A stretch of DNA of 64,000 nucleotides, from the NCBI GenBank assembly GCA_950295325.1, contig OX485805.1:10726501-10790500 (forward strand). Direction: 5' to 3'. Within the stretch, counting starts at the first letter, position 1, and each line of letters begins with the position of its first letter. This stretch comes from Polytrichum commune. Taxonomy: Eukaryota; Streptophyta; Polytrichopsida; Polytrichales; Polytrichaceae. The translations under genes were made by a program, and so were the position numbers. Of the stretch, positions 35,700 to 61,212 are shown piece by piece. The notes under the pieces are model-generated. The model did not search any database. It was not told where the DNA came from and saw only the letters and a list, made by a program, of their open reading frames with translations.

Positions 35700-36485
35700 G
35701 CAATGAGTTTGGGTCGAGCAACCCAATCCTGTTGTCAGGATGCGGCATAGACATAGGGTCATGGACCCACAAGACCTCCAAAATGGGTTCGGGTCGACCG
35801 ACCCAAACCTCGTGACAGGATGGGCCCCGGTCGTCTAACCCAGCCCACACTGTGTGGATGGGTTTGGGTCGAGCGACCCAAACCTCTTGTTAGGATGGGC
35901 CTTGCTTGTCAAACCTAGCCCACACTTTGTGGATGGATTTGGGTCGAGCGACCCAAACATCTTGTTAGGATGGGCCTTGCTTGTCTAACCCAACCCAAAC
36001 TGTCTGGATGGGTTTGGGTCGAGCGACCCAAACCTCTTGTTAGGATGGGTCTTGCTTGTCTAACCCAGCCCACACTGTGTGGATGGGTTTGGGTCGATCG
36101 ACCCAAATCTCTTGTTAGGATAGGCCTTGCTTGTCTAACCCAAGGCACACTGTGTGGATGGGTTTCGGTCAAGCGACCCAAACCTCTTATTAGGATGGGC
36201 CTTGTTTGTCTAACCCAGCCCACACTGTGTGGATGGGTTTCGGTCGAGCGACCCAAACCTCTTGTTAGGATGGGCCTTGCTTGTCTAACCCAACCCACAT
36301 TGTCTAGATGGGTTTAGGTCGACCGACCCAAACCTCGTGATATGATGGGCCCCATTTGTCTAACCCAGCACACACTGCGTGGATGGGTTTGGGTCGACCG
36401 ACCCAAACCTCTTGTTAGGATGGGCCTTGCTTGTCCAACCCAGCCCACACTGTGTGTATGGGTTTGGGTCGTTCGACCCAAATCT
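35700..36485. repeat. 75-bp tandem array with one 20-bp palindrome per unit (element 2 T leader)
   Basis: About ten to eleven units, period 75 bp. Palindromes start at about 35788, 35863, 35938, 36013, 36088, 36163, 36238, 36312, 36388 and 36463, plus a degenerate one near 35707. The core is TTTGGGTCGNNCGACCCAAA; the 55-bp spacer includes CCTCTTGTTAGGATGGGCC. The array lies between the T promoter (36.7 kb) and the acceptor before the T start codon, so it would sit in a 5' leader intron. The array in element 1 has the same palindrome but unrelated spacers. Confidence 0.9.
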
Positions 36486-36696
36486 TCCGCAATTTACGCC
36501 TGATAATGCGGCATACTTCCATTTCGCCTAAATAGAAACTACTTGGATGAATTCAGGCCGTGCATGGCTATTCTATTTAGCTACTCATGAACGGAGGTGT
36601 ACACAAACCTTGTACTCCACCTCTAACTGAGAGAGCTTGCAATGATTTCAGAATGGGGAGATGAGGAAAAAGGACCGAATTCCGGGGGGTTTGGGA

Positions 36697-36797
36697 CTTT
36701 ATACTACCCGCCTCCACCTTGGCCTTCCTCTTTGGATGCCTTTCCCGCCGGAATTTCATTTGACCCTTAATTCAAACCTTCTGACAGACTTTCCCGC
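36697..36797 (-). promoter_or_regulatory. Element 2 T promoter: TATA box and E2F-type sites
   Basis: On the minus strand, TATAAAG (36703-36697) is preceded by GGCGGGAAA (36741-36749) and a second GCGGGAAA (36790-36797). Both match the plant E2F site TTTCCCGC in reverse. The block from TCTGTCAG through GGCGGGAAAGGCATCCAA to TAGTATAAAG is shared with element 1 at 49720-49795, while flanking non-coding DNA is not. Promoter function is inferred from position and conservation. Confidence 0.55.
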
Positions 36798-36934
36798 TTC
36801 ATGCTCGTAATAGATAATCCATATTTAGCATGGCTCTTCGTCGCCCCAACCATCAAATGACCTTGCTAATTCCGCTATTAAATAACTACACAAAATATGA
36901 GGTGTGTGTTTCATTATATTTAGTGTTGCTACCA

Positions 36935-37640
36935 CCCTACCATGCTCAACATTAATTTTCAATTTTTTGACAATTAGTGTTAGACATAAATGTGTTGCTA
37001 CCTTCTACTCTCACATATATTTCTTCTTCTCACATCCTTACTAACATCCACTAAATCCAAACATGAACATTCCACATATTACCATAGATGATATTTATTG
37101 TTCGAGTTTACATTTAATGTTACTTACTTTCATATGGTTATTGATATTTAGTGTATGCGTTATAGTTAGTGTATCAAACACTAAATATCATATTTTTTGT
37201 AATTGTGTTTTGTAACTAAAGTTTTTGGCGATTTGCCCTGCCAAAAAATGTAGTGAACTTTATTTGTTTAAAACAAATGTTTGACGAAAAATCTAATCAA
37301 ATGTAGTTGTACCTAGTCAATGAAAGTTGAACAGAACATGTCCACGACTTCATGTTATTGTGTTGTAGTGTCACTACACTAAATGAAATATTTAGAGTTT
37401 GATACACTAAATACGAACGCATCTACTCAATACTAATACCACTATGAAAGTAAGTCACATCAAATGTAAACTCAAACACTTAATATTATATATGGTAATA
37501 TGTTGAAGTTACACGTTTGAATATAGTGTTAGTAAGGGTATGAAAAAAACAATGATAAAGGAAGATCTCCAATATATCTTCCAATATCCTCTAACACTCT
37601 TTGTCAAAAAATTCAAAATTAGTGTTGATGGGGTTAGAGT
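36935..37640. repeat. Long inverted repeat (fold-back) in element 2 intergenic region
   Basis: Left arm about 36935-37190, right arm about 37385-37640, separated by about 190 bp. Matching landmarks include AATTTTTTGACAA, CATATTACCATA, GAGTTTACATTTAATGTTAC versus its complement, and TTAGTGTATCAAAC. A transcript would form a long hairpin. It is absent from the corresponding region of element 1, so it is probably a fold-back MITE inserted in element 2. Confidence 0.7.
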
Positions 37641-38609
37641 GTTTTATTTTATGTGCCTATGACATGCACTATTGGGAGGAAAATGGTATTTGATAAGTGA
37701 TTTTGAAAACCCATCCTCCACAACTTCACATCAATGCATTGCATACAGAAAAAATTATGTAATTCTAGGATATTACTCTACTTGGACTCAAATATTATGG
37801 TTTATTTCAAACAATATATTGACAATAGATGTGGCAACATTATGAAACTTTATATAGTATAAGCCACCAAATACAATTACAGTTTAGTATGTAGTTATGA
37901 CGACTTTCACATGAGGACTTATACATTGAAAAGAAGAATTCATGTCATGACAAATTTGAATAATTTGGCCAACTTTCAATTTGCGACAATAAAAATGAGA
38001 AAAACTTGAAAAGAACATATGGCGTTTGTAATGTGTGCACACAACGTGCTCCATTGTCAAGCATGCATGTGTGGCAATGAATAACGTATGTGGAAGGCAT
38101 TAATGGGAATTCCATCATGAATGGGACTTTATAGTTTAGGGTTTCAAGGATGTTTGAAACTATCATGAAGTCCACTTGAAATCTAGTATAAAGATCATAT
38201 CTACTATAACCAAGTTATTATACTCTTCATGACAATATACATTTGTATTGAAAACTACAAGCACCAAGGCTTGTAGTTCATGTTACCTATGTGCCATTCA
38301 TTTGTGGCTTGCGGTGTTTAGGGTTTAGGGTTTAGGGTTTAGGTTGGAGGGATCATCAAACATCAAACTTAATGCTTAAATGGCTTCATATGATTTTGAA
38401 CTCCATGGGGTTCCAGTAGATAAATTTGTAATCTTTGTGCATCTCCCATGTACTTCAAATGTCAACTTCTATGTACTGATATAAATGATTAGGGCAATGC
38501 TACTTGGGTGGCTATCCATTGTAGGCTAGAGCCTTGTCTTCTACCAACTTGGGTTATGAAAATTACAATAGAGAGCCCTAAACCCTTGACCATGTTAATG
38601 GTTAGCATA
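37641..38609. other. Element 2 intergenic DNA with telomere-type repeat
   Basis: AT-rich, with no gene. It contains about four TTTAGGG heptamers (near 38312-38340), as does the matching region of element 1. It is interrupted at 38614 by element 1. Confidence 0.5.
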
Positions 38610-38754
38610 TTTAAACACTATATTCGTTAAATTGAGACTTTTTGGGCATTTTGAGATAATCACATAAATAAGAACAAGGATAAATGGAACACATATTGGA
38701 GAAAGTTGTAAGATGCGAACACTTTGAAGCGGGTGTTTAGAACAAGAACCCCAT

Positions 38755-39020
38755 TAATAACTCATATTTGGGATTGTTTAGGGTGGGCAATCCAAACCTT
38801 AGGCCAAGTTGAAGGGGAAATCTTAAAACATTTATATTATCGCACAAAAACTTGTATGAATATGGTTTAGGTAGCGCAATCCAAACCATAGATCATATTG
38901 AAGGGGAAATATGTGAACCAATATAATATAACATACAAAATATTCCAAACTCATATTTGTGATGGTTTAGGTAGGGCAATCCAAACCTTAGACCATATTG
39001 AAGGGGAAATCATGTGACAC
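38755..39020. repeat. Subterminal ~95-bp repeats at the P end of element 1
   Basis: Three copies of GGTTTAGGTAGGGCAATCC followed by AAACCTTAGACCATATTGAA and GGGGAAAT, spaced about 90-100 bp. The same set occurs inverted at 63565-63835 in element 2. Repeated, conserved and next to the terminus, they are candidate binding sites for transposition proteins. The T end lacks them. Confidence 0.7.
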
Positions 39021-39151
39021 TTATATTATTGCAAAAAAAACATACAAATTATGGCATGTAAAATGCATAGCATGCTAACACCACACATCCATTGGATAGT
39101 GCGACCCAAAATGTTCTTGCCTATGGCTCACAACCCTACGCCTACTATGGC

Positions 39152-39972
39152 CTATCTAGCCTCGGAGACTACCTCTTTTTCTTTTGCTTCATTTTCTTTT
39201 GCTTTTTTTTCTTTTGCCTCTTTTTCTTTTGCCTCTTTTTCTTTTGCTGCGGCTTCTTTTGCTCGCATTGCTTCAACATTCCTGAAAATCTCCGCCCCGC
39301 GACTATAGCCATTCTTGGGGTGACCGCCATCAATAACACATTTTGGATTCCGTCGGCCGCCCGAATTATACGACGAAGAATTCGAATACGATGAAGTGGA
39401 CTGTCTTGCATTTCTGGTCATGGAGTAGAAACGCTCCAACTCGACGGACGCACTAGCCCGCATAGGTCTACGGGTGGGAGCAACCTGCAACGCGTGAATG
39501 CAAGAACACACGTGTTAGTTTAGGGAGGAAGACCCAAACGTGTCACACGTTCATTTTTTAAGTGCCGGATGATTGTAATGCGCAGTTAACCATGTTTTGG
39601 GGGGGGGGGGGGGTTCACCTTGTCACCGGGGGCGTTCCCGTCGGAGTCGGCGAGGAGGGGCAATGCATCCCGCAAAGGAATAGGAAGGGTGCCACTCTTC
39701 GTAGGCCGAGCGTCCATCCGCAGCCGCCGTTGAGGTGTACTACTGCCGCCGGGCCGAGACGGGGACGTCCGGACGCATTTGCGATTTATGCCCTTGAGCG
39801 GCGACAGGGACGGAGATGGCCGGAAGATTTGCTTGGGTGGGGGGCTATCGACGACGCCGGCGTCAATAGGCTCCTTGGAGTAGTCGATGGTGGACGCGGC
39901 ATCGTAGACGGTCTCGTAGAAGAAGCTCCCCAAGTTTGATTCGCTGACGATGTCAATCGAGGGCTCCAAACG
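39152..39972 (-). CDS. Element 1 downstream exons (two), Lys/Glu-rich C-terminus, unknown
   Basis: Exon a (39972-39619, 118 codons, after acceptor CCCATCAG, before donor AAG|GTGAAC) begins RLEPSIDIVSESNLGSFFYE. Exon b (39484-39152, after GCGTTGCAG) reads VAPTRRPMRASASVELERFY and ends in an A/K/E repeat (KEKEAKEKEAKEKKAKENE) likely to form a helix. Both keep phase 0. The same two exons with the same splice sites exist at 62642-63435, and exon a is exactly 354 nt in both, so coding constraint is likely. Exon a has no ATG. It must join an upstream exon, either by alternative splicing from P exon 4, whose stop is conserved, or from an unseen exon. Function unknown. Confidence 0.5.
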
Positions 39973-40091
39973 CTGATGGGAAAATTAAAACAAACAAAAC
40001 CCAAGGGGAGGGGGGCAGGGGGGGAGCATGAGAAAATCGATATACAATTGAGGCATACTATATCACACACAATGGCACACCATGTAGTATC

Positions 40092-40904
40092 TCAAATGAG
40101 TTTATTATATTTCGCGTGAGCGTACAACTCTCTGTACATATAGTCCTTCGGATCCATGTATCTTTCGCCTATCGGATTACAACTAAGGAACCGGGGCACG
40201 GGTAGTCCGCTCCCCACGAGCGTTTGAATGTACTTAAGTAGGTCTAACAAAAAGCGGTCTCGGACCTTCTCGACCGTCCACGTGGGGCAAACTATGAAGT
40301 TCGAGGTCGGGTTCAAAATGTTCTTGGAAGCGCTGTCGTCCACCATCAACGTGTTGTCACGGGTGGGGCGAACGTTGTAGGGACAGCCGACCATGGTCGG
40401 ACGCTGATCCCATACGACTGGCTTCAAGACCTTAAGAAATTGGTTTACGGCGGGGTTGTTGGGCTTCTTCACAACCCTGCCCTCGGGGGTGTACAATGTT
40501 TTACAAGAATCCTGTCCTAGGACCAAGCACGGGGGTTGGAGTCCCTTGAAGATGAACTCCACGACGGCCTGGGTGTTCTCGGACTTCATGGAGCTCCACA
40601 CGATCACCCACCATTTGGATAGGGTGACCTGCAGGAAGCGCCGAAGCCACGGGCGGAGGTACACTAGCTTGCTTTTGATGTACGCGGGGGGACCATCGTA
40701 GTTCCCGTCCTCGGGCTTGCAGAAAGGCACCGTGGGGACCTTGGGACAGTGCACGCACTGGACGAGGACCCCGTTGAGGTCTAGCACCAGGAACCGTGTC
40801 TTGGGCGGCGGAGACGGGGAGGGCAAAATCGGGGGGACCACCGCGCTGTCCTCCACGCTCCTCGGGGAGGACCGGTGGGGAGCCACGACGCTATGCTCCG
40901 ATCC
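40092..40904 (-). CDS. Gene P exon 4 (element 1): FCP1/NLI-type phosphatase-fold domain
   Basis: 270 codons, then TGA. No ATG starts this frame; it opens at splice acceptor CCGCAG|GG in phase 0 with exon 3, which supports fusion to the rest of P. HAD-superfamily FCP1/SCP signatures in order: FLVLDLNGVLVQC (family DxDx(T/V); the nucleophile Asp is present, at about residue 1423 of the spliced protein, but the second Asp is Asn), then WWVIVWSSMKSENTQ, then the distal acidic motif NTLMVDDSASKNILNP (about residue 1570). FCP1-type domains dephosphorylate proteins such as the RNA polymerase II C-terminal tail. The D-to-N change, also Asn in element 2 (DMNG), may weaken catalysis or leave a binding role. 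The exon is GC-rich. No lesion is seen in this copy. Confidence 0.75.
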   Translation of the reverse strand, partial: GSEHSVVAPHRSSPRSVEDSAVVPPILPSPSPPPKTRFLVLDLNGVLVQCVHCPKVPTVPFCKPEDGNYDGPPAYIKSKLVYLRPWLRRFLQVTLSKWWVIVWSSMKSENTQAVVEFIFKGLQPPCLVLGQDSCKTLYTPEGRVVKKPNNPAVNQFLKVLKPVVWDQRPTMVGCPYNVRPTRDNTLMVDDSASKNILNPTSNFIVCPTWTVEKVRDRFLLDLLKYIQTLVGSGLPVPRFLSCNPIGERYMDPKDYMYRELYAHAKYNKLI

Positions 40905-41323
40905 CTGCGGCGACGAGCGAGAGAAGGCGACGAGGACTATGTTATGCTATGTTTAATTCAAGCAGAACGGAAATTTTGTGCAAACACAAGAAGAATTGGA
41001 CCATTGGTGGCAACAAAAACATACAAGGGGAACAACATACATTGGGACACGGATGCTAACATATGGGCGCCAAAAATAGTAATTTTATTGTTACAAATCT
41101 CTATGTACAATTTGAGGGGGGGGGGCGCGGTGAACGAGGGCATTCACACTATCCTAATTGTACATCTACAAAATTGGTTGCGCACCGCCAAGGTTGAGCG
41201 TAGTCGAGTGAGGTGAGACGAAGGGGATCGCGGGGGGAGCACGTTGTTGGGTGCGTCGGGGGGGTGTAGTTCCTTATAGCTAGGGGGGACAAGACCACGC
41301 CAACAAGACAATGACCAAGGAGG

Positions 41324-41343
41324 TTTGGGTCGGTCGACCCAAA
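41324..41343. repeat. 20-bp palindrome in P intron 3 (element 1)
   Basis: One exact copy, TTTGGGTCGGTCGACCCAAA, 20 bp inside the 5' end of intron 3 (donor at 41365). Element 2 intron 3 has one copy at the equivalent place (61193-61212). Confidence 0.95.
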
Positions 41344-41365
41344 CTGGGAAGGCTCAGTGTGTTAC

Positions 41366-42850
41366 CTCGCCCTGGTCATGTCTCGACGATGTGGATGCCT
41401 CCACCGTCCCCGATGCCCCACCTCTCTCGCCACCGCCTTCTCCGCCTACGTCAGGGACCTTGTCCTGCAAAGGTTGAGCATCAGGCCCTTGTCCTAAACC
41501 AATCTCCGCATATGCATCATGCATGGGTTCATCGATTTGGTTAGGATTAGAGGTATCACCAGGCCCTTGGAGGCCTTCAACATCTAACATGGTTGTGTCT
41601 CTTTGAGACACAAGTTCGTCAAGGGAGGACTGAGCTGCTCCGGGGTTTGGGTCAGGCGACCCAAACTGTCCTGCATCGGGGGAGGCGCCTTGGGGCACTA
41701 CAGTCGAGGGTGGGTTTGGGTCGGTCGACCCAAACATCCTGGGATCGTCCGGCTGGTGAGGGGGCGCCATCACTATGGGGGGTCGTAGTGGTGGAGGGCC
41801 CAACGGGGAGGAGGCTCCAGATACGCGCCAGATGTTGGGATCGTCCACTTGTTGGACTGGCGCGTACGGAACATGGGGCGGCCGCATCATGTGCTGGAAG
41901 CTGAATGACCCTTGCGACACTGGGTGCTGAGGGATGCTCTGCGCTAGGAAACCGGGGGGCAAGTGCGGAAACGAGCTGGATGGAGCCACCACCAATCCTT
42001 GCGCCCACATCCCTTGTATGACTTGCGATATCAAGTCGGCGCTGGATGGAGGTTGGGCCATCGCCCTTAGTCTTTCTTGTTCCAAGAGGAGAGCCCTCAG
42101 CTCTGCGACCTCGTTCCGCACGGAGGGTTCTTCCGCGGTAGCCCTCTGCAGGCGGACGCGCTGCTCCTCGTCTCTACGCATCTTCTCGTTGGCTTCCTCC
42201 ACAGTGAGGACTTCGGGTTTCACCCTAACCATGCCTGCGAACGCTGTCGGGGAGGGGGGATCCGATCTGAGCCGTTTGGCGAGCTCAATGTCGTCGTCGT
42301 CCTCGCTGCTAATGGCAATGGTCTCCTCCAATGCGTAATCGCCATAGAGCTTCTTTCCCTTTAACTTCCTCCTCTCCCGGAACGTGGCAGTCGCGTCCCT
42401 GGAGTACATGTCCCTCGCATCGTCCACCGTAAGGACGGGCATCATCTTACTCTGCGGGGTTGCCACACGCATAGCCTTCTTCCTCTGAGGGGCTTCAGAT
42501 TCTTGCGTGAATCCCGTTGCCCCTTCCTCCACATCCCCCTCCTTTTCCTCCTCTCCGTGTTCTTCTTCTTCCTCCTCCTCTTCCACCTCTCCACCTCCTG
42601 TACGGGACGGATTGCCCGGATGCAACCCGACTAGAGGTTCGGGTAATTGGGTTGTTGCCCTCATCGCAATTTCTTCCGGGTTGATCCGCCTCGCCCTATC
42701 AAGAGGGTTCTCACCCCCCTCAACAACCTCGTCCACGTAGCTTCCCGGGATCCAATCGAGGATATCCATCTTCTTTGCCAGCGATTTCTGCGTCCTGTAA
42801 AATTGCAGATCGCTATCCTCTATGTACGAGTAGATGTTCAACCCCAACAT
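41366..42850 (-). CDS. Gene P exon 3 (element 1): acidic, coiled-coil, FGSxDPN region
   Basis: 495 codons in phase 0 between acceptor TGTGTAG|ATG and donor GAG|GTAACA. The first ~25 residues (MLGLNIYSYIEDSDLQFYR) probably complete the AdoMet-type fold begun in exon 2. Then follow a poly-Glu acidic stretch (near residue 90), a KLKGKKLYGDYALEETIAI segment leading into SSEDDDD (a plausible SUMO-interaction motif, conserved in element 2), and a charged coiled coil (EEANEKMRRDEEQRVRLQ...VAELRALLLEQERL). A Pro/Gly-rich tail contains two in-frame copies of the element palindrome, at 41715-41734 (FGSTDPN, exact) and 41646-41665 (FGSPDPN, variant). Likely a disordered and dimerising linker between the enzymatic-type domains. 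Unknown as a family. Confidence 0.7.
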
Positions 42851-42919
42851 CTACACAATCCAAGTTATATAGAAATTAGAATTTGCAAGACAAAAAACAA
42901 GACCAAAAACAATATCTAG

Positions 42920-42975
42920 TTTGGGTCGACCGACCCAAACCAAGAGAGAGACTAGTTTGGGTCGACCGACCCAAA
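42920..42975. repeat. Two palindromes in P intron 2 (element 1)
   Basis: Exact copies at 42920-42939 and 42956-42975, both with centre AC, start to start 36 bp. They lie in the 154-bp intron between the GT at 43004 and the AG before 42850. Element 2 intron 2 has one (59620-59639). Confidence 0.95.
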
Positions 42976-43004
42976 CTGCGCAAGAGCTAAAGAATGTAAC
43001 TTAC

Positions 43005-44336
43005 CATGGCAGCATAGAGGGGTTTCGAGCCCCCGAACACGTTGAAGATACAGTCCCCTCTCCTAGTCAGCGTCCTCAGCATCCGCATGTAGAATTCCAT
43101 CCGCAGCTCATCTGCAGGATAGTTTGCGTATTTGGCCTCGTCGTATAGGCATTTGCTGGAACCTAACCCATCTGGAACTTGGAAGAGCTTGTCCATCCGG
43201 GATATAGGGTGGTTCGGCACCTTCAACAACTCCGCTTTGTACACGAAGTACAAACACAGGACGTTGACGACCTTGGTCTTCTTGTCCTTCAACGACGTGT
43301 AGGCCCCCTCCGCCGGTGCGGCGATGTAGTGAGACTTGGAGACTGCATACTCCGGCTGCAATTTCCGGACAAGGTCGTACACCTGCTCCGCCCTCCTATC
43401 CTCGACTATCCATAGCCAGACATCAACCTCCCTGAACTTAGGACTCGCATAATCGACGAACTTAGATAGGAAGGGGTCGTAAAACAGTGTGCTCATCGTA
43501 CCCTCAAATGAGCTTCCAGGAATGTTCCTGAAATCTATCATTCCGAATGGGAAACGCCCCCCTGCTTTCGTCCTTATCGCCATTCTGGCGTCTTGACCTG
43601 GCCAGCCCTGAATTTTCAAAGGCTCGAAGGTGACAAGGTTGAAGTAAGCGTCCCCTTCAAACTGGACAATCTTCTTCTCCTTGATGAAGTTCGAGAACGC
43701 ACGCGCTGTGTGATCCGGAAGCGCCCGGTTCTTCCCACCCTTCACCATCTTGGCCCGCAAGAAGTCATCCCCCGCTTCCCTTATTAGAGCCGCCATGGAG
43801 GCACTGGTGAACTTATATTCAGCTTTGAATGCTCTCCAGTTAGCCTCATGAACCTCGCCGTCCACGACAATATTCCTCTCCGGCACCAATTTATGCAGCT
43901 CCTGCACTATAGTTGTCTTCTTTTTCCTATTCTCAGTCCATTCCTTCATGGTGTAGCATGAAGGGACGAAGGATTTGGGCTTTAAGAAGACAATCTTCGG
44001 GTGCACCCAGCACCTTTTCGCCGTGGGCGTGAAATGCAGGATGTGCGCCGCCGCCTTCTCCATCTCCGTCTCGGAAAGGCCTTGAAGAGTTCTAAAGAAC
44101 TCTCTCACGAGAGGCTTCATTTGTTTGAAGCGCGTGGTTTGGTTGAAGAAAATTCATGTGTCCGGGTCGATGAGCTCACCCGTCTCATGCTTCTCAAATA
44201 CACTCTTCCACTTCATCCAAACGGAGTCGGATGCTGTTATTAAATAAATCTCCCCTCTAAGCTCGTTGTATTTCTTCTGTTTGTGACTAGCATTATCAAT
44301 GGAGGAGAATTTATTTATCATTTGGTATTTGAAGTC
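43005..44336 (-). CDS. Gene P exon 2 (element 1): methyltransferase-like region
   Basis: 444 codons in phase 0 (acceptor TGCAG|GACTTC, donor ATG|GTAAGT). A TGA at 44154-44156 (codon 61; Gly in element 2) is the only visible lesion of P in this element. The end of the exon reads GDCIFNVFGGSKPLYAAM and continues in exon 3 as GLNIYSYIEDSD. This resembles the motif I/II layout of the C-terminal AdoMet-binding half of permuted (beta-class) N6A/N4C DNA methyltransferases (gD.vlD.F.GSG...aA...g..y..iE.D). A segment EVDVWLWIVEDRRAEQVYDL would be the preceding core strand and helix. A clear catalytic (D/N/S)PP(Y/F/W) is not visible, so the domain may be catalytically dead or only analogous. ParB-plus-methyltransferase fusions are known in phages, which makes the order plausible. 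Confidence 0.55.
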
Positions 44337-44426
44337 CTGCATGTGATCAAAACAATCATTTGAATGCATGTTAGATATGAACATGTGATTTCCAAAACAT
44401 ATCATGACCAGTGTCTGCACCAAGAG

Positions 44427-44675
44427 TTTGGGTCGATCGACCCAAACTAAAAAAACATGACTGCAACAAGAGTTTGGGTCGATCGACCCAAACTAAAAAA
44501 ACATGACTGCAACAAGAGTTTGGGTCGATCGACCCAAACTAAAAAAACATGACTGCAACAAGACTTTGGGTCGAGCGATCCAAACTAAAAAACATGACTG
44601 CAACAAGACTTTGGATCGAGCGACCCAAAGTACACAAATAAAGCTGCAAAAGGAGTTTGGGTCGATCGACCCAAA
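44427..44675. repeat. 46-bp array of six palindromes in P intron 1 (element 1)
   Basis: Copies start at 44427, 44473, 44519, 44565, 44610 and 44656. Four are exact with centre AT; 44565 and 44610 each carry one substitution and centre AG. The units are spaced by AACTAAAAAAACATGACTGC-type sequence, giving a 45-46 bp period. The array fills most of the 349-bp intron 1. The equivalent element 2 intron has three copies at 57-58 bp spacing with different spacer DNA. Confidence 0.95.
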
Positions 44676-44685
44676 CAATACTCAC

Positions 44686-46011: not shown

Positions 46012-46038
46012 CTGCAAAGAAAGAAGCAAGGATGTTAG

Positions 46039-46402
46039 TTTTGGTCGTTCGACCCAAACTTCTTCACAATAGATTAGATGTCACGTGATGGAAGGGAAAT
46101 GTAATGCATCAACGCATTTATTTTTGGATTGTGTCTTGTTATTTTAGAACTTCATTTATATGTTTATATGGTATTTCGTTATCTTGGGTGGATTTGCGTT
46201 TTATATTGTCATCAAGGATTTCTTGAAAAGTTTATACTGTAGAGGTTGCGTTTGGGTCGACCGACCCAAACAGCAGGATGTGCTTTGGGTCGATCGACCC
46301 AAACTATAGGCTGTGTTTAGGGTTTACGGACCCAAAGCACATCGTGCTGTTTGGGTCGATCGACCCAAAGCACATCCTGCTGTTTGGGTCGATCGACCCA
46401 AA
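46039..46402. repeat. Palindromes in the P 5' leader (element 1)
   Basis: Exact copies start at 46251, 46284, 46350 and 46383 (33 bp or a multiple apart); variants lie at 46039, near 46314 and near 46415. They precede the acceptor at 46012-46013, so they probably lie in a leader intron. Element 2 has matching copies at 56286, 56318, 56598 and 56675. Confidence 0.9.
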
Positions 46403-46473
46403 CTATAGGCTGTGTTTGGGTCGTCTCCCCAAACTGTTCTATTTTAATATAGCTTTTTAAACTTGGCATGTAG

Positions 46474-51045: not shown

Positions 51046-51245
51046 TCCCACCCAAAATATTTTGTGGAACATTTTGTGGACTGGCGCACAGTATTGGGAG
51101 CTCACATTGCATTTGTGTTGCAAATGTCTTGATCCTCAGTGTCCCCATTCATCGTGATGTTTTGCATTTTCCAATATTTGATTTTTTTGGACCCTTACGT
51201 TGTGTCCATGTTTGTTGAGGTTTCATGTGCATATGTGTAGGCGTA

Positions 51246-52689
51246 ATGGAGGGAGTTGGTGGAAGAGGGGATTCCTTCTCTGAAGACATGGGCAGCACCC
51301 AATCTCTGTCTGGGGATGAGCTAGACATTGTCGGGGAGGATAGTTTTGATGACAGTGCAGATGAAGGTCATTTGGGGAGTCCTTCGCCATCTGACCCTTT
51401 TTGCCCCATTGTGGAATGTGCGGGGCTTTCACGAGCTTCATGGGTGAATTTGGATGTGGTACTTGTTAATGACAGTGGAGTTGCTGTGGCGGAGGGTATT
51501 TGTCGTAACACACATCCACAAGATTGCATTGATGAACACCCCCTTGGCACCGAGGACGTTGGAGTTGTTATATTAGAATCACTCGTACATTCGGAAGTCA
51601 ATCCAACTCATAGGTTCTCGTTGCGAAGGTGGCCGTTGAGGAATGTGACAATTGAGGGGGTTAGCTTGCGCGACCATGAGCGACGACACGTCCAAATCCA
51701 ACAGGAGCTCCAAGCAAACATTCGGCCACGCAAAGGCCTTCGGAAGTACGAAACATTGACACGTCCTACTCCGTCTACAAATAAGTGTAAACGTCAAAGG
51801 TTGCTCTGTGAGGAGTCTATTAGAGAAGTTGCTACGAAGGATTGTTGTGTACATCGTTGTTGCCAATTGTTCCCAAGAGATAAATTGAAGGCCATCCGTG
51901 AAGAAATGTGGCTTGGAGATTTCCGTCTAAGATCCACCAAAAAACTTGATGTCCATAGGGCGATACATGTGAACGGAGCGGGTCGCAAGGTCATCACCCA
52001 TGAGAGCATAGACGTGTGTTGTACGGCATGGTACACCATTCATGGTGTGTCGAAAGCGGAATTTTATAGACAAGCCGCGTATGCCAATGAAGGCCGCCGT
52101 GCCCGTCACCATGGGAACATGGGCTTAAAGAAACCAAGAGAAGCAACGAGACAAGCAACAGCCACTTTGGCAACCATCATTGTCCCCCTTGCCGATGCAA
52201 TGCCGCACAAAACACGCACACTCGCAACCGGTGAAAAGGTTGTGGAGAAGGTTCTTCCTACAGGCACGAAATGGAAAGACATATTGTTGGACGTAAACGC
52301 AGTTGGCGAGAAGGCCGGGTTGGACCCAATTTCGTTGTCGAAACTGAGTGCTATCAAAAAATCTCACTTTAGCGAATACATCACAAAAAGACGAGGCGAC
52401 AAATTTGCCCGTTGTTCCAAATGCGAGAAGTTGAAACGCCTTCGAGATGCACACACGATGGGGACAGAGTCCTATGCCGCACATCAAATGAACTATTTCA
52501 AGCATGTGAACATGCAAGAGGCACACCGTAATGATTACTACACAAATAGAGCTTTGTCCATCTCCAGGCCTTTGGAAGTCCTTACAATCATCCATGACAA
52601 GATGGACCATGCCAAAACAGCCTCACCATGTTTTGCAAATCGAATCAAAGCCACGGACGGCCTTTTTAAGCTTCCTGTTTCGGTTACAG
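51246..52689 (+). CDS. Gene T exon 1 (element 1): DUF7869-type putative transposase, N-terminal half
   Basis: Exon 1 of an intact two-exon gene (976 aa in all). The ATG at 51246 was chosen because acceptor TGTGTAG ends at 51240, and element 2 has the same acceptor-ATG arrangement. Residues 1-60 are acidic. A Cys-rich segment (DCCVHRCCQLF) precedes DVCCTAWYTIHGVSKAEFYR, then GLKKPREATRQATA, MPHKTRTLATGEKVVEK and KRRGDKFARCSKCEKLK (CxxC). HDKMDHAKTASP (Asp at residues 451 and 454) is the probable first acidic residue of an RNase H-type triad. Donor ACAG|GTGATT splits a Gly codon. The family, called DUF7869-like from memory, is widespread in plant and algal repeats. The copy is free of lesions, unlike the one at 32010-35491. 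Confidence 0.78.
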
Positions 52690-52827
52690 GTGATTTTGAT
52701 AACAATTGCATTGCATTACCTAAACACAAATTTGTGCGTTTAGGTTTGTACTTGGGGCCATACATGTACACCATGTGAATTTTTTGGTGTTATAGTTGAA
52801 TATTAAACCATTGGGTTGCCTTTGCAG

Positions 52828-54314
52828 GAATGATTGCACATGGGCATGGTGATGTCAAATATGCTCATTATGCTCTTGATTTGTATCCGGCGGATTCAAA
52901 CCACACGATAGGGTCATTTGCAAAGCTTTTACGTGATTTGGAGAAACCGCTGTCCTATTCATCAAGATTGCTATTTGAAAACTCGGGATCAACACCTCTA
53001 TATGAAGCGGTCTTGGATGGAAGAGATGTATGCGTGCACTCATTGCCGGAGCCACCAAGTGAAGATGTGATTGCCAAGAAGTTGCCCCCAACTCTGCGTG
53101 TCCAATTGGACAATTGTGCGAAGGACAATAAAAGTAGATATGTTTTTGCATATTGGTCGTTGTTGGTTGCGAAAGGCATTTTCAAGGAGGTTTTTGTGTC
53201 CTTTCTATTGGTAGGCCATATGCACGATGATATTGATGCGTCCTTTGGGCGGTGGAGCATGAAGTTGCGCGAGGAGGATTTTCCAACAATCCCATTGTTG
53301 ATGAAGTCGTACATGAATTTGGAGAACATTCCCGTCATCCCCCATATGATCGAGGAGGTTCCAGACTTCAAGGCATTTATAGAACCGTATATTCGAAGCG
53401 GAGCTCACCGATTGATCGGGCATACGAAGGCACAACAATTTCGGTTCTACGTGCGTGACGATGGTGTCCCCGCCATGCAATACAAGTTGTTGTGCACATC
53501 ACAAGACTGGAGCCCGCCGGAGGGTCTCCTTGTATGGCGTGTTGATGGGGAAGGAAGGACGATGTTGCCTGACGGAGAGCCTAAGCCTTGCAAACCAATA
53601 CCCATGAAGAATTTGGAGGACATTTGTAAAGGCATATCAGGCTTCATACAATATTGGGAGAGTTTGAGGGTAGCGGATGTTGGTGGATCGTGTTGGCTTC
53701 GTTACGGAAGTTGGATACAATATTGGACACGTGTTCGTGGCGCTTTGGCAAACCTTCATCAAGATACACCCCTTACTTTAAGGCATGGGTTTTGGCCACA
53801 AACACGTGTCAATGTACAAGCTTCGGAGGCTAGTCTTTTGGGAAATGGAGAGGTTCGAGAGGAGTTTGATGTGGACGACCATTACGTGGGGCCTGCTAGT
53901 AGTCGTCCGCCACCATCTTTCCGCATTGCAGTGGATTGTCATGAAGGTTATATGTTCATTTTGCGTCCTGGAGATGAGACATATGCAAAGCCAGTGTGGG
54001 TGGCAAGAGCTTTGTCCAAACCAAATTTTGTAACTTCCAGCCCTCATTTTCGACAAATACAAGTAGAGTACTACCGATCGACAGCACGGAATGAAGATGT
54101 TGTTCGACATTATACAGGCTGGGATACAAACCCTAACTTTCGGTGGAAGGTGGATTCTGAGCATGGTCCATCTTGGGTAGATACAGATTCCATATTCATA
54201 GCATGGAAACCACGGAAAAATCATAGTGGATCAGTGTCCATCCCTCAAAAGTACATAACTTTTGCAAAAGACAACCTTGCTCGGATCGCAGAAGAAGCAA
54301 CCCACGTTGAATGA
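52828..54314 (+). CDS. Gene T exon 2 (element 1): catalytic core and C-terminal domain
   Basis: Joins exon 1 in phase 1 (TTTGCAG|GAATG). It carries HGHGDVKYAHYALDLYPADS, then VQLDNCAKDNKSRYVFAYW (Asp at residue 576) and LLVGHMHDDIDASFGRWSMK (Asp at 615, 616 and 618). With HDKMDH in exon 1 these give a D...D...D pattern expected of an RNase H-fold (DDE/D) transposase; the third residue choice is inference. The C-terminal 200 residues (ILRPGDETYAKPVWVARAL ... FRWKVDSEHGPSWVDTDS) look like a small beta-barrel reader of BAH or SH3 type, low confidence. It ends IAEEATHVE, 534 bp before the terminal repeat. As the only intact T gene here, it could mobilise both elements if expressed. Confidence 0.78.
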
Positions 54315-54784
54315 GAAGTTGGTAGGATTGTGTTAGCATGATTATAGTGTAAACTGTAATTCGACGAATATATATTACTCATATGTGTGCTCCTCAAACT
54401 TGGGGCAAAGTTTGGGTAGAACTTGCGAATGCTATATTGTTTGGGGTTGGATGAATATCCATTTACTATATTTCAATACAGTTGTGAAGTTCATTTTTTT
54501 TATTAAGTTTGGGACTAAATTTTCCATTGAAGAAAAATGCATTTATTGCATGCACTTTGTATGTTGCAATGTCTATATTTTATTGACCATGCTAATAATA
54601 GAAATTATTTTATATGTTTCTTGGGTGAAACTAGTTTGGAGTGCTCTATCCAAAGTGTTTTTGTAGATGAAGTTGGTGTTGAGTGCTCTACCACATGTGC
54701 TTATGTCCACACATAATAGATTTGGGATATTAGAACATATAATATATTTGAGATCGTTCTCAATATAGTTTCGGAACACGGAAT

Positions 54785-54846
54785 GTTGTTTGATCCATAT
54801 ATTAATTTGAGACTAGAGAAAGTCTCAATTTAACGAATATAGTGTT
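54785..54846. repeat. Right terminal inverted repeat of element 1 (T side)
   Basis: GATCCATATATTAATTTGAG, ACTAGAGAAAGTCTCAATTT and AACGAATATAGTGTT run to 54846. The outer ~27 bp mirror 38614-38641. Inner sequence also matches the left end of element 2 (31495-31535, reversed), as expected for T-side ends. Confidence 0.85.
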
Positions 54847-55064
54847 TTTATATTGTTGCACCGTGTAATTGCATTTGAGGATTGGAATATAATAATGACA
54901 TACTCCTCTTAGACTTTGTATCACTCTCATCTCACTCTATATGACTACATTATTGAAATTGTAAAACAAATAATGGATTCATTCTACGATGTTAGCAATT
55001 CCAACGCGGGACCATTGAATTGAACACCATTAAAATCAAAGTTCGCGATGGTGTTAATTTTGTG

Positions 55065-56721
55065 GAATACCTTAGGCTATGTAGCTTTTCGAATTTTTTC
55101 TAATGGCCGCTATAGATAGCGGCTTAGAATGCCGGGACCGAGCGGCCAAGAGAGGCGCTGGCCCTCCTATGTCGTGCTGCTAGGGGCGGCAGGTGTGCAC
55201 CCCACAAGCCTCGGGTAGCCACCATCACCAAGAGGGTGTTGACACATGGCAGGGTGGCTGCCTGCGAGGCTTGTGAACCGTTGATGGGCTCGGCCGCTCC
55301 AATGGCCCAGATTGGGTCCCAAGGCTAGCCCTATCTCTCTCTCTCTCTCTCCCTCCGCGATTTCTTTTTCTCTCCCTCCGCGCCAAGCTCCCTCCTTTCT
55401 CTCCCTCCTTTCTCTCCTTCTTGTCGTGAAGCGGCGGCACCTCCCCCGAAGCGACAGCTCCGCCTAGCGCCGCATTTTCTTATTCTCTTACTCCTTTCCA
55501 CCTCTGACATTCTTCTAACCTTCTTCTCGGATTCTCTCTTCTTTTTGTAAGGGTTTAGGAGCAATTTCAGTGTGTGTTTATTGTAGAGGAGTGTGTTTTT
55601 GTTTAGGGGGACTTGCATTGAATGATTTCAGAGTCTGTTTGTTGTTTATGAGTGTGTTTTTGTTTATTGAGTGATTTCAGAGTGTGGTTGACGTTTAGGA
55701 GAGTGTTTTTGTTTAAACAGACGCGCATTGAGTGATTTCAGAGTGTGGTTGTTGTTTAGTGTTTAGGGTTTTTGTTTAAAGATACGCGCATTAAGTGAAT
55801 TCAGATTGTGTTTGTTGTCTAGGAGTGAATTTTTGTTTGAAAGTATGCGCATGGAGTGTTTTCGGAGTACGCTTGTTGTTTAGGAGAGTGTTTTTGTTCT
55901 AGAGTGCGCGCTTTGAGTGATTTCAGAGTGTTTTTGATGTTTTGAAACTGGCTTTTGTTCTTAAAGTGCAAGACAGAGTGATTACAACTTATTGCCTCAG
56001 TGATACAGAAACTTTGGCCTGAGTGTTAGTGAGATTTGAGTGTTCAGGTGTGATTACAGACTGATTACAGCTTATTGCAGCTTGAATCAAGGTATTATCT
56101 TTACTCAACATAATATGCTTCAATTTCTTTAGGGTCTTGATGCATATACAATGCATAAGCATTGTATATGTTGTGTCCAAAAATTACATATGAATCTTGA
56201 AACACAATAGTTTTGGGCGACGCCCCAAATCTCTATATAAAACCCCAACCCCATAAAAACTTAACAATGTAAATGTTGCAGGTGGTTTGGGTCGCTCGAC
56301 CCAAACCCTGCTGATGGTTTGGGTCGCTCGACCCAAAACCTACAACGAACCAAGCCAATATCTCAAACTAAACAACCTTCTAAACATTAATAACCATTTT
56401 TTTGATGCCCATAATGTGGAATCTCCTGAGACTAGTTGGCATGTCCACATATGTCCAGCGCGGATTAACCAAAACATCAAAAATTGCTGAGAGAACGGAT
56501 AATTTGAACACTACTTGGTGCTAATCAATATACTCAGCGTCATAAGACTCGAAATCCACCAACAATTCTTGTATAATTGAGCTACTCCAGGCTTGGGTTT
56601 GGGTCGCTCGACCGAAACCTGTCATTCATGGTGACCAAAAGAATATCGTTCTCCCATTCCACCAAATAGAATGCTTTGGGTCAATCGACCAAAACTAACA
56701 GTGTCGTTTCTAGAATTACAG
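55065..56721 (+). promoter_or_regulatory. Element 2 P promoter/leader region
   Basis: Contains AATACCTTAGGCTA (about 55065), a CT-rich tract (about 55330-55410), six or so ~70-bp units of GAGTGATTTCAGAGTGTGGT with TGTTTAGGAGTG (about 55560-55990), the 28-bp dyad at 56143-56170 with perfect 12-bp arms, and palindromes at 56286-56305, 56318-56337, 56598 and 56675 (the last two are variants). Acceptor ATTACAG abuts the P start codon at 56722. The order parallels the minus-strand region 47530 to 46012 in element 1. Confidence 0.55.
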
Positions 56722-58047
56722 ATGGCCCCCAAGAAGAGACCTGGAGAAAGGTGGTTTATGCTCGCGCCAGACGAACTATGGCAGGAGTACGAAACTCCCC
56801 AGGACGACACATACGTGCCCAAGGATGGGCTCGTTCTTGCGTGGTCCGTCCAGGTTGTGAAGTCCTCCCACTTCAAGCTGCTATTCGTGGTGAAGGTGGG
56901 GACCCACGAGCAGCACACATGGGCAACACTGACGGGATGGGAGGTTGCGTCCGTCCAAGCTCTCGGGGACTACGTTGACGTTATTCTGGAGAACTCCGCC
57001 GTGCAGAACGTTCATATGTTCATGCACCAATTCTCCGAGGCTTTCGACCCCTTCTACGCCAAGGAGACGTGCATTGAACCGGAGACAATAAAACAGGAGG
57101 CCATCTTCATAGATGGCAGTGTAACAAACACTAAGATTGCTAGCAGGTTCACAAAATTGAAACATGCTATCACGGTTCACAACAAGGCGCTGCAAAACAA
57201 ACCCAAAACGCAGCAACCGTTGAGGCGGAAGGCCACGACAGAAGAAGGCGCGGGGTCCTCAAGACCCCAAACTGTGAGAAAGCCGCGGCCGGTGCCTGCA
57301 GACTCTCGAAGGACGAGTACTACCTCGACGCCGGCTGACAGCTCTACGCCAACGCCGTCCGCAAGCTGGCAGACGACACCGTCCAAGAGGGGAAGAGAGT
57401 CATCAATGATGACTGACGAGCCAGCTTCACCAGAGCTGCGGATGCCGAAGCCTGGCCAAGAGGTGGATGCAGGGGAAATACAAAAGATCAACGACAACTT
57501 CGAAACAAAATGCATCCACTGCTTCTTCATGGGCAGGGGCTTCAAGTTCGACGTTAACATCGCCCAGTGCCACCTTGCGCCACCAGAAAAGTGTGTCCGA
57601 GCCAAGGATGACGCCTACGTTGACTGGATGGTCGCTCAGATATTGGGCGGTCAGTTCAAAGATGACAGGCAGACGATTGTGGTCATGCCCCAAGGCCTAA
57701 AAAAAATGCCGACGCCTGATATGTGGCCGGCAATTTCAAAGGGAGATTTCTGGCTGATTGACGGCCAACACAGTGTGGAGGCCTCCAAAAAAATTTAGCT
57801 GATGACTGAATGGGACGACCCCCACAAGCAGAAGGAGAAGCTCAAGGTGTGGAAGGCATTGGTGGTCTGATGTGACAACGAGACCGTTCTTACTGACATC
57901 TCCCGCTTCTTCAATATGGGAAACAAGAAGAGGGCATATCAGGCATCATGGATTAGGAATATCATGGCCTCGAGGGAGGTGTGGGAGTTTTATGGAAGGC
58001 CTCCCAAGGAAAGGGAGAATGCGAAAGACAAGAACCCGAAATGGGAG
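56722..58047 (+). pseudogene. Gene P exon 1 (element 2): ParB/DGQHR-like domain, broken
   Basis: Exactly 1,326 nt, as in element 1, with the same acceptor-ATG and donor (GAG|GTGAGC). Interrupted by TAG at 57796-57798 (CAG, Gln, in element 1) and TGA at 57868-57870 (TGG, Trp, in element 1), both consistent with cytosine deamination. The FWLIDGQHSVEASKKI core is intact just before the first stop. Confidence 0.8.
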
Positions 58048-58056
58048 GTGAGCAAG

Positions 58057-58191
58057 TTTGGGTCGTTCGACCCAAACTCTTGTATTCTTTCATTGTCTTT
58101 GTCAGGCTTATAGTTTGGGTCGATCGACCCAAACTCTTGTATTTTTTTTATTGTCTTCGCCAGGTTTTTAGTTTGGGTCGACCGACCCAAA
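58057..58191. repeat. Three palindromes in P intron 1 (element 2)
   Basis: Exact copies at 58057-58076 (centre TT), 58114-58133 (AT) and 58172-58191 (AC), spaced 57-58 bp. Spacers share AGTTTGGG...CCCAAACT flanks and TTGTATT but differ from the 46-bp spacers of element 1. Confidence 0.95.
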
Positions 58192-58254
58192 CTGCTGATG
58201 CATTTCTTGTTTCATGACGTGTTGTCTAACGTGTGTTGTTTACTTCATTTGCAG

Positions 58255-59585
58255 GATTTCAAATACCAGATGATTAATAAATTCTCCTCGATTGACAACG
58301 CAAGCCACAAGCAGAAGAAGTACAACGAGCTACGAGGAGAAATTTATTTAATCACTGCTTCTGACTCTGTGTGGGGAAAATGGAAGTGTGTTTTCGAGAA
58401 ACACGAGACGGGGGACCTCACGGACCCCGACACCGGCATGCTCTTCAACCAGATTGCGCGCTTCAAGAAAATGGAGCCTCTGGTGAGGGAGTTCTTCAGA
58501 GCTCTTCAAGGGCTTTCGGAGACAAAGATGAGAAAGGCGGCTTCCCACATCCTTCACGTACAGCCCACGTACGACGAAGAGATACTGGGTCCACCCGAAG
58601 ATCGTCTTCACCAAGCCTAAAAGCTTCGTCCCTTCATGCTACACAATGAAGGAATGGACGGAGAACAGGAAGAAGAAGACGACCATCGTCCAGGAGCTGC
58701 ACAAGCTTGTGCCGGAGAAGAAGCTCCTTGTGGATGGAGAGGTCGACGAGGCGCACTGGAGGGCCTTCAAATCCGAGTACAAGTTTACCAGTGCGTCGAT
58801 GGCGGCACTCATGAGGGAGGCGGGAGACGAATTCCTCAGGTCCAAGCTCGTGAAAGGGGGGAAGAACCGGGCGCTTCCCGAACACTCCGCGCGTGCCTTC
58901 TCCAACTTCATAAAGGAGAAGGAGATCGTTAGTTTCGAAGGGGACGCACATTTCAACTTGGTCACCCTCGACCCGCTCAAGATCCAAGGCTGGCCAGGGT
59001 CCGATTCCAGGAAGGCGATCAGGACAAAAGCCGGGGATCGCTTCCCCTTCGCATTGATAGACTTCAGAAACATCCCTGGAGCTTCATTCGAGGGGACAAT
59101 GAGCACCTCGTTTTACGAGCCATTCTTCTCCAAGTTCGTCGACTAGTCCCAAATTCAAGGAGGTGGATATCTGGTTGTGGATTGTCGAGGACAGGAGGGC
59201 GGAGCAAGTCTACGAGATTGTGCGGAAATTGCAGCCAGAGTACGCCGTCTCGAAATCCCACTACGTTGCTGCACCGGCGGAGGGGGCGTACAACACTTTG
59301 AAAGACAAGAAGACGAAGATCGTCAATGTGTTGTGCTTGTACTTCGTGTACAAAGCTGAGCTGCTGAAGGTGCCAAACCATCCTATAGCCCGGATGGAAA
59401 AGCTTTTCCAGGTCCCAGACGTGTTGGGTACCAGCAGGAGTTTGTACAATGAGGCGAAATACGCCAACTACCCCGCGGATGAGCTGCGGATGGATTTCTA
59501 CCTGCGGATGATGAGGACCCTCACGAAGAGGGGGGACTGCATCTTCAACGTCTTCGGGGGCTCGAAACCGGTCTTCGCTGCAATG
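58255..59585 (+). pseudogene. Gene P exon 2 (element 2): methyltransferase-like region, broken
   Basis: Same splice sites as element 1 (TTTGCAG|GATTTC; ATG|GTAAGC). A net 4-nt insertion near 58565-58590 and a 5-nt deletion near 59142-59147 (creating a TAG) break the frame. Glycine is present where element 1 has its TGA, so each element is damaged at different places. The end keeps GDCIFNVFGGSKPVFAAM. Confidence 0.75.
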
Positions 59586-59619
59586 GTAAGCAACTACCCT
59601 GAAGTTTTAATGTGTTTGG

Positions 59620-59639
59620 TTTGGGTCGAGCGACCCAAA
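59620..59639. repeat. Palindrome in P intron 2 (element 2)
   Basis: One exact copy with centre AG in the 128-bp intron between donor 59586 and the acceptor before 59714. Confidence 0.95.
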
Positions 59640-59713
59640 CTAGTTTTGTATTGGTTGTCATTTTTCTCTATTCTTCATTGGTGATACTAACGCTATTGAT
59701 ATGGATTGTGCAG

Positions 59714-61170
59714 ATGTCTGGGTTGAACATCTACTCCTATGTGGAGGATGCCGATGTTCAATTCTACAGGACCCAAAAGTCTCTGGCTAAGAGGATGGAC
59801 ATCCTCGACTGGATACCGGGATCCTACATTGGCGAGATCCTCCAGGGGGGTGAGAATCCGCTTGATATGGCGAGGCGAATCAACCCGGAAGAATTTACCA
59901 TGCGGCCCTCCGTTGAATTGCCAGAACCACTCATCGGGTTGCATCCGGGCAATCCGTCAATGGGAGCAGGTGGCGAGGTTGCGGAGGAGGGGGAGGAGGA
60001 GGAGGAAGCAGAAAAAATGGAGGGGGAGGTGGAGGAAGGGGCAACATGATTCACTCAAGAATCCGAAGCCCCTCAGCGGAAGAAGGCCATGCGGGCTGCC
60101 ACGCCGCAGAGCAGGCTGGTGCATGTGCTCACGGTGGACGACGCGAAGGAGATGTACTCGAGGGACGCGATGGCCACCTTCAGGGATCGGCGAAGGCTGA
60201 AGGGGAAAAAATTGTACAGCGACTATGCGGTGGAGGAGACGATCGCCATAAGCTCCGAGGATGAGGACGACATGGAGCTCGCGAAGAGGCTAAGGTCGGA
60301 TCATGCCTCCCCCACAGCGTTCGCCGGGAATGTGAGGGTGAAACCGGAAGTCCTCATCGTGGAGGAGGCCAACGCGAAAATGCTCTGGGACGAGGAGCAG
60401 CGCGTCCGATTGGAGAAAGCTGCCGCGGATGAGCCCTCGGTCCGCAACGAAGTCGCGGAGTTGAGGGCTCTCCTTTTGGAGTAGGAGCGGCAAAGGGCGA
60501 TGGCCCAACCTCCCTCCCAAGCGGAACTGATCACGCAAGTGATTCAGGGCATGCTGGCGCAGGGATTGGTGATGGCTCCCCCGAGTGCATTCCCTCATTT
60601 GCCCGCCGGCTTCCCTCCCCAAGATATCGGCCCGCGCGTCAGCAGTCATTCAGCTTCGGGCATTTGCTACAGCCGCACGCCCGCCCTTACGCGCCCGTCC
60701 AGCAGGTGGACGACCCCAACCTTTGGCGCGTCCCCGGAGCGTCCATCTCGTTGGCACCCCCGCCGCTCCGGCCTCCCATCCTCTTGCCCCCACACCACCA
60801 GCGGGACGACCCCCACATGTTTGGGTCGTCCGACCCAAACAGTGCCGACGTTGGAGCGTCCCAGAGCGACCCTCGCCAAGCAGTAGGGTTTGGGTCGGCC
60901 GACCCAAACCCCGTCCCCGATCAGACCCCCGTTGACGAGCCCATGCTAGATGTTGAAGGCCCTCAAGGGCCTGATGATACCTCTATTCCTAACCCAGTCG
61001 ATGAACCAATGCATGATGCGCATGCGGAGGTTGGGTTGGGACAAAGGCCTGACAGTCAACCTTTGCAGGAGTAGGTTGCGGCTGACGTCGTCGTCGGAGG
61101 CGGCGGTGACAGAGGTGGGGCAACGCACGCGATGCCGGCATCAACGGCGTCAAGGCACGACCAAGGCGAG
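59714..61170 (+). pseudogene. Gene P exon 3 (element 2): acidic/coiled-coil/FGSxDPN region, broken
   Basis: Matches element 1 exon 3 from MSGLNIYSYVEDADVQFYR to the donor GAG|GTAATG. Stops: TGA at 60047 (Gly in element 1), TAG at 60482 (CAG in element 1) and TAG at 61072 (AAG in element 1); the frame also shifts around 60640. Two exact palindromes at 60820-60839 and 60889-60908 read FGSSDPN and FGSADPN in the protein frame. The TIAISSEDEDD motif is kept. Confidence 0.75.
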
Positions 61171-61192
61171 GTAATGCACTGACCCCACTCAG

Positions 61193-61212
61193 TTTGGGTC
61201 GGTCGACCCAAA
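61193..61212. repeat. Palindrome in P intron 3 (element 2)
   Basis: One exact copy with centre GT, 23 bp after the donor at 61171, the same relative place and centre as in element 1. Confidence 0.95.

Follow-up and report, generated by a model that had tools for sequence, protein, structure and literature searches.

Which protein reads a 20-bp palindrome that recurs throughout two transposons of Polytrichum commune is the question raised by a 64,000-nucleotide stretch of its genome (NCBI GenBank assembly GCA_950295325.1, contig OX485805.1, positions 10,726,501 to 10,790,500 of the forward strand; referred to here as the window). The two transposons, an inner complete one and an outer older one, each carry a gene T, whose product is a putative transposase, and a gene P on the opposite strand, and copies of the palindrome, TTTGGGTCGNNCGACCCAAA, lie in the leaders of both genes and within P. 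We consider it probable that the palindrome is recognized by a sequence-specific DNA-binding protein that the transposon itself encodes, most likely P.

Copies of the palindrome and their conservation

Allowing up to three mismatches, we found 55 copies of the palindrome in the window (39 exact, 10 with one mismatch, 3 with two, and 3 with three), against a mean of 0.06 copies in shuffled window sequence. At the threshold of two mismatches, which applies to the site counts that follow, there were 52 copies, none of them beyond the transposons. The P gene of the inner (left) element has 16 sites (leader 5, intron 1 6, intron 2 2, exon 3 2, and intron 3 1) and that of the outer (right) element 11 (4, 3, 1, 2, and 1, respectively), and the T leaders contain 11 sites in the outer element and 14 in the inner one (15 with three mismatches allowed). 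These results agree with a first-pass annotation of the window, which had reported some 40 to 55 copies, about 11 and 15 of them in the two T leaders and others in the P leader, all three P introns, and P exon 3 of both elements, with none outside. Two degenerate copies with three mismatches (at 39091 and 63470) occupy homologous positions, both within the elements. The first site in intron 1 of P starts after 10 intron bases in the inner gene and after 9 in the outer gene. An Rfam search gave no match, and searches of viral contigs with the palindrome and the proteins gave no confirmed match.

Comparison of the arms with their surroundings showed that the word itself is held. In three tandem arrays, 5/162, 2/108, and 0/72 arm positions were off consensus, whereas the corresponding figures for the spacers were 48/495, 25/156, and 27/144, i.e. 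a divergence of 0–3% in the arms versus 10–19% in the spacers, the latter being inflated in the 46-bp array by a 1-base length change. In an alignment of the inner with the outer P gene, the arms in introns 1–3 and exon 3 are identical at 124/126 aligned positions, compared with 421/658 non-motif positions in the introns (61 gapped positions excluded) and 1057/1400 in exon 3; in the poorly aligned P leader, the values were 60/71 for the arms and 165/350 for other positions. The first-pass annotation had stated that only the 9-bp arms are kept and that the spacers are unrelated between the elements. The arms are indeed kept relative to the spacers, but a flanking G (47/52 sites) and a flanking C (46/52) are also nearly invariant, so that the site spans approximately 22 bp, GTTTGGGTCG-NN-CGACCCAAAC. 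The statement on the spacers was too strong, as the two T-leader arrays, with the motifs counted in, can be aligned at about 65% and the intron flanks are homologous.

The copies in exon 3 are translated as part of P, and the residue encoded at the NN position of FGSxDPN varies among them (T, P, S, A, G). When the inner and outer P genes were compared, fourfold synonymous sites within the motif were identical at 6/6 positions, versus 85/153 outside it. The five remaining pairs among copies A, B, D, and E, which are not independent of each other, gave 7/7, 7/7, 6/6, 6/6, and 8/8. Four pairs involving copy C gave 0/7 and were left out of the comparison, because the piece had been read across a length change; there the motif is identical in DNA and out of frame.

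In principle, such sites could act in RNA, with the palindrome forming a transcript hairpin in leaders and in introns near P splice donors and thereby controlling splicing or RNA fate. The sites do lie in probably transcribed stretches (leaders downstream of TATA-like boxes recognized by eye, introns, and exon 3), and in both P relatives compared below a site follows the first 5–10 bases of intron 1. Among 224 sites with up to four mismatches, some of the four-mismatch ones being chance occurrences, we counted 135 one-sided pair changes (42 of them to G-T) and 16 two-sided ones, only 2 of which still pair. Thus, the sequence rather than the pairing has been kept, and we rejected the hairpin as the main explanation and regard it as unlikely.

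Base composition was also considered. In five T-leader arrays, the observed/expected ratio of CpG in the spacers is 0.03–0.28, whereas each site retains about 2 CpG in the motif. GpC is likewise depleted in three of the five (0.05–0.35), and the arrays consist of tandem copies; the scarcity of CpG was therefore not used as a sign of methylation protection.

Linkage to transposons of two kinds

Genome-wide (408 Mb, 64 contigs), there are 9,731 exact copies of the palindrome and 0 of the reversed control. Linkage was assessed on the first 100 exact sites, which all come from the initial 2.16 Mb of a single contig, C1. All 100 fall inside five transposons, 81 in three elements of the T/P family and 19 in two elements of another kind, and none lies outside. 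The distribution unlinked to the elements that, according to the first-pass annotation, would refute its inference was thus not seen in this sample.

The two elements of the second kind have a transposase-like gene T' and a divergent gene P' together with the same palindrome, which forms arrays with a period of approximately 32 bp in a T' intron and the P' leader. One of them spans 49.6 kb because other sequence has been inserted. T and P had no match in the second-kind elements, nor T' and P' in the T/P-family elements. T' gave a weak match to a SWIM zinc finger (E 0.08, below the Pfam cutoff), and the one copy read at both ends is flanked by a 10-bp duplication, AGTTGGCATG; Mutator-like elements make target duplications of about 9–10 bp. 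Since the same word accompanies T and T', which have no detectable similarity, the palindrome is independent of the transposase.

It is conceivable that the dyad is bound by a transcription factor of the host, whose sites the transposons have gathered for their own expression, and the occurrence of one palindrome in two families with different transposase-like proteins would fit this explanation. We find it quite unlikely, as the sampled exact sites are confined to transposons and the palindrome differs where P differs (see below).

P' contains the motif FFIWDGNHRFFAW and matches the N6_N4 methylase profile PF01555 below the cutoff (E 7e-4, 20.1 bits vs 26.7); tblastn matches to phage methylases were weak (best E 0.01). 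Homology between P and P' was not evident, as shuffled alignments reached the same score and the best profile alignment, which was not significant, covered the DGxH motif alone. The methylase matches raise the possibility that P or P' is a protein of the ParB-methyltransferase type that methylates the palindrome (as N4-methylcytosine or N6-methyladenine). P itself has no methylase match, and its methylase-like end is a reading made by eye. Neither P' (LQFPDG) nor the family at C1:463–473 kb (ADIPES) shows an evident DPPY, the usual catalytic motif of methylases.

A precedent exists in Ectocarpus, where the giant transposon Sola1-1 has a ParB-like and DNA methyltransferase accessory gene that runs in the opposite direction to its transposase, and where the authors propose that proteins of this type may bind to, and modify, the transposon that encodes them (PMC12477816; this and the other cited sources are used here as far as their available parts go). 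In the ParB and transposon literature that we searched, this was the sole report judged relevant, and by analogy its accessory gene appears to be the nearest in gene content: P and P' likewise lie on the strand opposite the transposase-like gene. Unlike the Ectocarpus gene, P has no detectable methylase and has a NIF-type phosphatase domain, the weak methylase match being found in P' only. We also consider self-modification unlikely. The available part of the Ectocarpus account gives no target palindrome; relative to it, what appears new here is that the target word is specific and abundant and that it changes along with the protein, the idea of self-binding being already present there (PMC12477816).

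In the C1:463–473 kb family, 139-bp tandem repeats at C1:468471–471929, 18 of them with a palindrome of the type GGTGTCTCGGTACCGAGACACC, lie near methylase-like and T'-like remnants, and this family possibly represents a further pair of palindrome and reader. Near a third relative, at C1:2130–2142 kb, no palindrome array was found.

Co-divergence of P and the palindrome

The four-exon model of P was built from the open frame, splice sites, and conservation. Exon 1 contains the motif DGQHSVEA, and exon 4 encodes a NIF/FCP1-like phosphatase domain (E 2e-13). For P, Pfam yielded no match to a ParB profile and the PDB search nothing credible; the likeness of P to ParB consists of the DGQHS-EA motif. 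Pfam, NCBIfam, and PDB searches with exons 1–3 returned only sub-threshold matches to unrelated families. The best of these, to the growth-hormone-receptor family (E 0.0013), was taken as an effect of composition, the matching stretch including the low-complexity part of exon 1. AlphaFold models of exon 2 and of the ParB-like region had a mean predicted local distance difference test score of 32.6 and 36.0, respectively, which is too poor for a fold search. T matches PF25273 (DUF7869) with an E value of 6e-41; no paper on DUF7869 was found in the literature searched.

A related family carries a different word. An element starting at C1:639070, adjacent to a T/P-family copy and read at one end, has a terminal inverted repeat (TIR) nearly equal to AACACTATATTCGTTAAATTGAGACT, the TIR of the T/P family (3 mismatches in 26), together with 46 copies of TTTACGAACG-NN-CGTTCGTAAA at up to four mismatches and a fragment resembling P exon 4, from the phosphatase domain (38%, E 3e-9). 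As nearly the same TIR thus occurs with a different palindrome, the palindrome is independent of the TIR as well. These results bear on the possibility that the palindrome is an internal binding site of the transposase T, comparable to the TnpA motifs of CACTA elements, which are transposase binding sites. The sites do cluster in the T leader; they are internal and not subterminal, and the palindrome follows neither the TIR nor the type of transposase. Binding by T was therefore rejected as the main explanation and is very improbable.

The second palindrome has 2,909 exact copies genome-wide, versus 0 for controls. Among the sites listed for it there are gaps of 1.33–1.47 kb, close to the 1.33 kb of P exon 1. 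All three such gaps examined (one, then two more) encode a relative of P exon 1 with 35–36% identity (E 9e-71, 8e-72, and 1e-73), with a stop in one and none in the other two; one of these relatives lies at C1:2464806–2466101. The second palindrome precedes the ATG and recurs in intron 1, where it follows the first 5 bases. The first palindrome was absent from the 1.4–1.5 kb read at each of the three loci, and the second (at up to two mismatches) from five elements of the first family. Within exon 1, the ParB-like half is 44% identical between P and its relative (97/218) and the N-terminal half 26% (53/201), and DGQHS[VL]EA is retained at 35% overall identity. Since a P relative of approximately 35% identity has another word at the same gene positions in 3/3 cases, P and the palindrome diverge together.

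The sampled sites lie within transposons, the arms are conserved against their surroundings, the word is separate from the transposase, and it changes with P at matching gene positions. With the sequence kept, the pairing not kept, and the word following P, the simplest account is an element-encoded reader of the DNA duplex. P would read the dyad either as a dimer or by means of two half-sites that are equivalent. The sites in the T and P leaders and in the P introns would make the gene bodies of the element the address to which P is recruited, and its recruitment would keep or set the expression state of its own copies, either by anti-silencing similar to that of VANC (see below) or by plain self-regulation. 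Specificity would shift through co-divergence of P and the palindrome.

Several points weigh against P as the reader. The second family has the first palindrome, yet its P' has no demonstrable kinship to P, and the reader could therefore be shared, captured, or a host factor. No P exon 1 was found in the 11 kb read of the C1:639070 element, in which P is represented by the phosphatase-domain fragment only. The three P relatives are close kin within one subfamily and amount to a single evolutionary event. Both P genes of the window are broken, the inner copy having one in-frame stop in exon 2; elsewhere in the genome, an intact copy has stop-free frames for exon 1 (C1:621464–622789) and exon 2 (C1:623053–624384). 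The ParB label for P rests on one short motif. Finally, the array copies are tandem-duplicated, and considerably fewer than 52 of the conserved sites are independent. The proposal of P as reader, made in the first-pass annotation, thus gains from the different palindrome of the P relative and from the independence of the word from transposase and TIR, but that model does not predict the palindrome in a second family whose protein has no shown relation to P.

A broader reading is that unrelated transposon types within a single eukaryotic genome share a self-address module, in which readers with a ParB-like motif and dense, family-specific palindrome arrays at fixed points of the reader gene change together, each family marking and controlling its own copies only. 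We put this forward tentatively, as a possibility that falls short of being probable.

By analogy, the nearest worked-out system appears to be VANC of the VANDAL elements of Arabidopsis, in which a protein other than the transposase is associated with motifs in noncoding tandem repeats and with anti-silencing; related elements have different repeats and motifs, and co-evolution of motif and protein has been proposed (PMC5735166, PMC10398659). The elements described here likewise have a short motif in noncoding tandem repeats and an accessory protein apart from the transposase, and the motif co-diverges with that protein (3/3 loci, one subfamily). Unlike the 9-base VANC21 motif, YAGTATTAY (the word 'palindrome' does not occur in the main text of either paper; PMC5735166, PMC10398659), the present site is a dyad of 20–22 bp that is also found in introns and an exon, and unlike the Mutator-type VANDAL elements, the T/P elements have a DUF7869 protein and a 4-bp duplication (all four complete elements). 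This comparison is one of description, and the second family with the same palindrome has a 10-bp duplication (one copy).

VirB, a bacterial anti-silencing regulator of the ParB family, has a palindromic parS-like site and counters H-NS (PMC10653881). The likeness lies in the palindromic site and in the relief of silencing proposed here, the ParB kinship of P being a candidate one, based on a single motif. The parS clusters of ParABS systems go with a ParB homologue partnered by parA; P, which gave no ParB profile match, is a candidate for such a homologue by its motif. TET/JBP genes are epigenetic accessory genes of fungal DNA transposons that have been passed between several lineages; they differ from the present system in encoding an enzyme, and no self-address is reported in the available part of that account (PMC12730594).

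The elements offer natural high-copy pairs of a co-diverged reader protein and palindrome, in which family-specific recognition is testable by two-site swaps. If our reading is true, it carries sequence-specific anti-silencing beyond Arabidopsis VANDAL to a further type of transposon and a different kind of protein, and supplies a target for the ParB-type accessory genes of algal transposons.

Structure of the elements and neighbouring sequence

The inner transposon is nested in the spacer of the older outer one. When the inner element was removed and the flanks joined, the result gave a continuous alignment with the spacer in the copy at C1:602001 (731 bp at 82%). The division into two elements given in the first-pass annotation was wrong in this respect, as the TIRs, the TTTA duplication, and the joined flanks show nesting; an arrangement in which T and P are circularly permuted or in tandem was dropped in favour of it.

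Three further genomic copies also have T and P in divergent orientation with palindrome arrays in both leaders, and the 3.2–4.4 kb between the leaders contains 0, 1, and 1 site. They terminate in AACACTATATTCGTTAAATTGAGACT, which has 3 mismatches at one of their six ends, and have the duplications AAGT, CCTT, and ATAA, so that, with TTTA, a 4-bp target site duplication is present in 4/4 complete T/P-family elements. CACTA/EnSpm elements have a 3-bp duplication and subterminal motif repeats; the present elements differ in the 4-bp duplication and the internal motifs. A 4-bp duplication is found in Sola2 (PMC3627910), and the likeness to the Sola superfamily is one of duplication length; T is a DUF7869 protein.

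Features of the two transposons in the window (positions within the window).
Feature	Position	Strand	Remarks
Inner complete transposon	38614..54846		P on -, T on +, divergent; 16.2 kb; exact 26-bp TIRs at both ends; TTTA duplication
Target duplication TTTA	38610-38613 and 54847-54850		flanks inner element
Outer older transposon	31495..63975		T on -, P on +; right terminus intact, left truncated at 31495; interrupted by inner element
Left TIR, inner element	38614..38639	+	AACACTATATTCGTTAAATTGAGACT
Right TIR, inner element	54821..54846	-	
Right TIR, outer element	63950..63975	-	
T gene, inner	51246..54314	+	exons 51246-52689, 52828-54314; open frame 976 aa; DUF7869; splice sites inferred
T gene, outer	32010..35491	-	broken by 410-bp insertion 33426-33835
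P gene, inner	40092..46011	-	exons 46011-44686, 44336-43005, 42850-41366, 40904-40092; splice sites inferred
P gene, outer	56722..62497	+	degraded: stops and frameshifts
Palindrome array, outer T leader	35708..36482		11 sites, period 75
Palindrome arrays, inner T leader	50065..51044		14 sites (15 with 3 mismatches), periods 64-67 and 56
Palindromes, inner P leader	46039..46402		5 sites
Palindrome array, inner P intron 1	44427..44675		6 sites, period 45-46
Palindromes, inner P intron 2	42920..42975		2 sites
Palindromes, inner P exon 3	41646..41734		2 sites, in-frame FGSxDPN
Palindrome, inner P intron 3	41324..41343		1 site
Palindromes, outer P leader	56286..56694		4 sites
Palindrome array, outer P intron 1	58057..58191		3 sites
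Palindrome, outer P intron 2	59620..59639		1 site
Palindromes, outer P exon 3	60820..60908		2 sites, in-frame FGSxDPN
Palindrome, outer P intron 3	61193..61212		1 site

Downstream of P (62591–63975 vs 38614–40023), the two elements are 91–94% identical and a further gene is possible there, whereas P itself is approximately 75–80% identical between them; this difference is a sign of recombination between copies. The insertion in the outer T gene has a 94% copy at 26063–26469 and is a small mobile element. A 61-bp copy of the T-side terminus lies at 49248–49308 in the inner spacer, directly before a diverged repeat. Short TTTAGGG runs, which we take to be plant telomere-like, occur in the spacers of both elements (38316–38343, 48152–48185, and 49360–49380).

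Elsewhere in the window, a LINE-like element (long interspersed nuclear element) at 9321–16974 has a strongly A- and C-rich strand, frames that by eye resemble reverse transcriptase and RNase H, and the stretch GDIEPNPGP, presumably 2A-like. A 555-residue frame at 1855–3522 resembles, as we take it, a hAT-type transposase.

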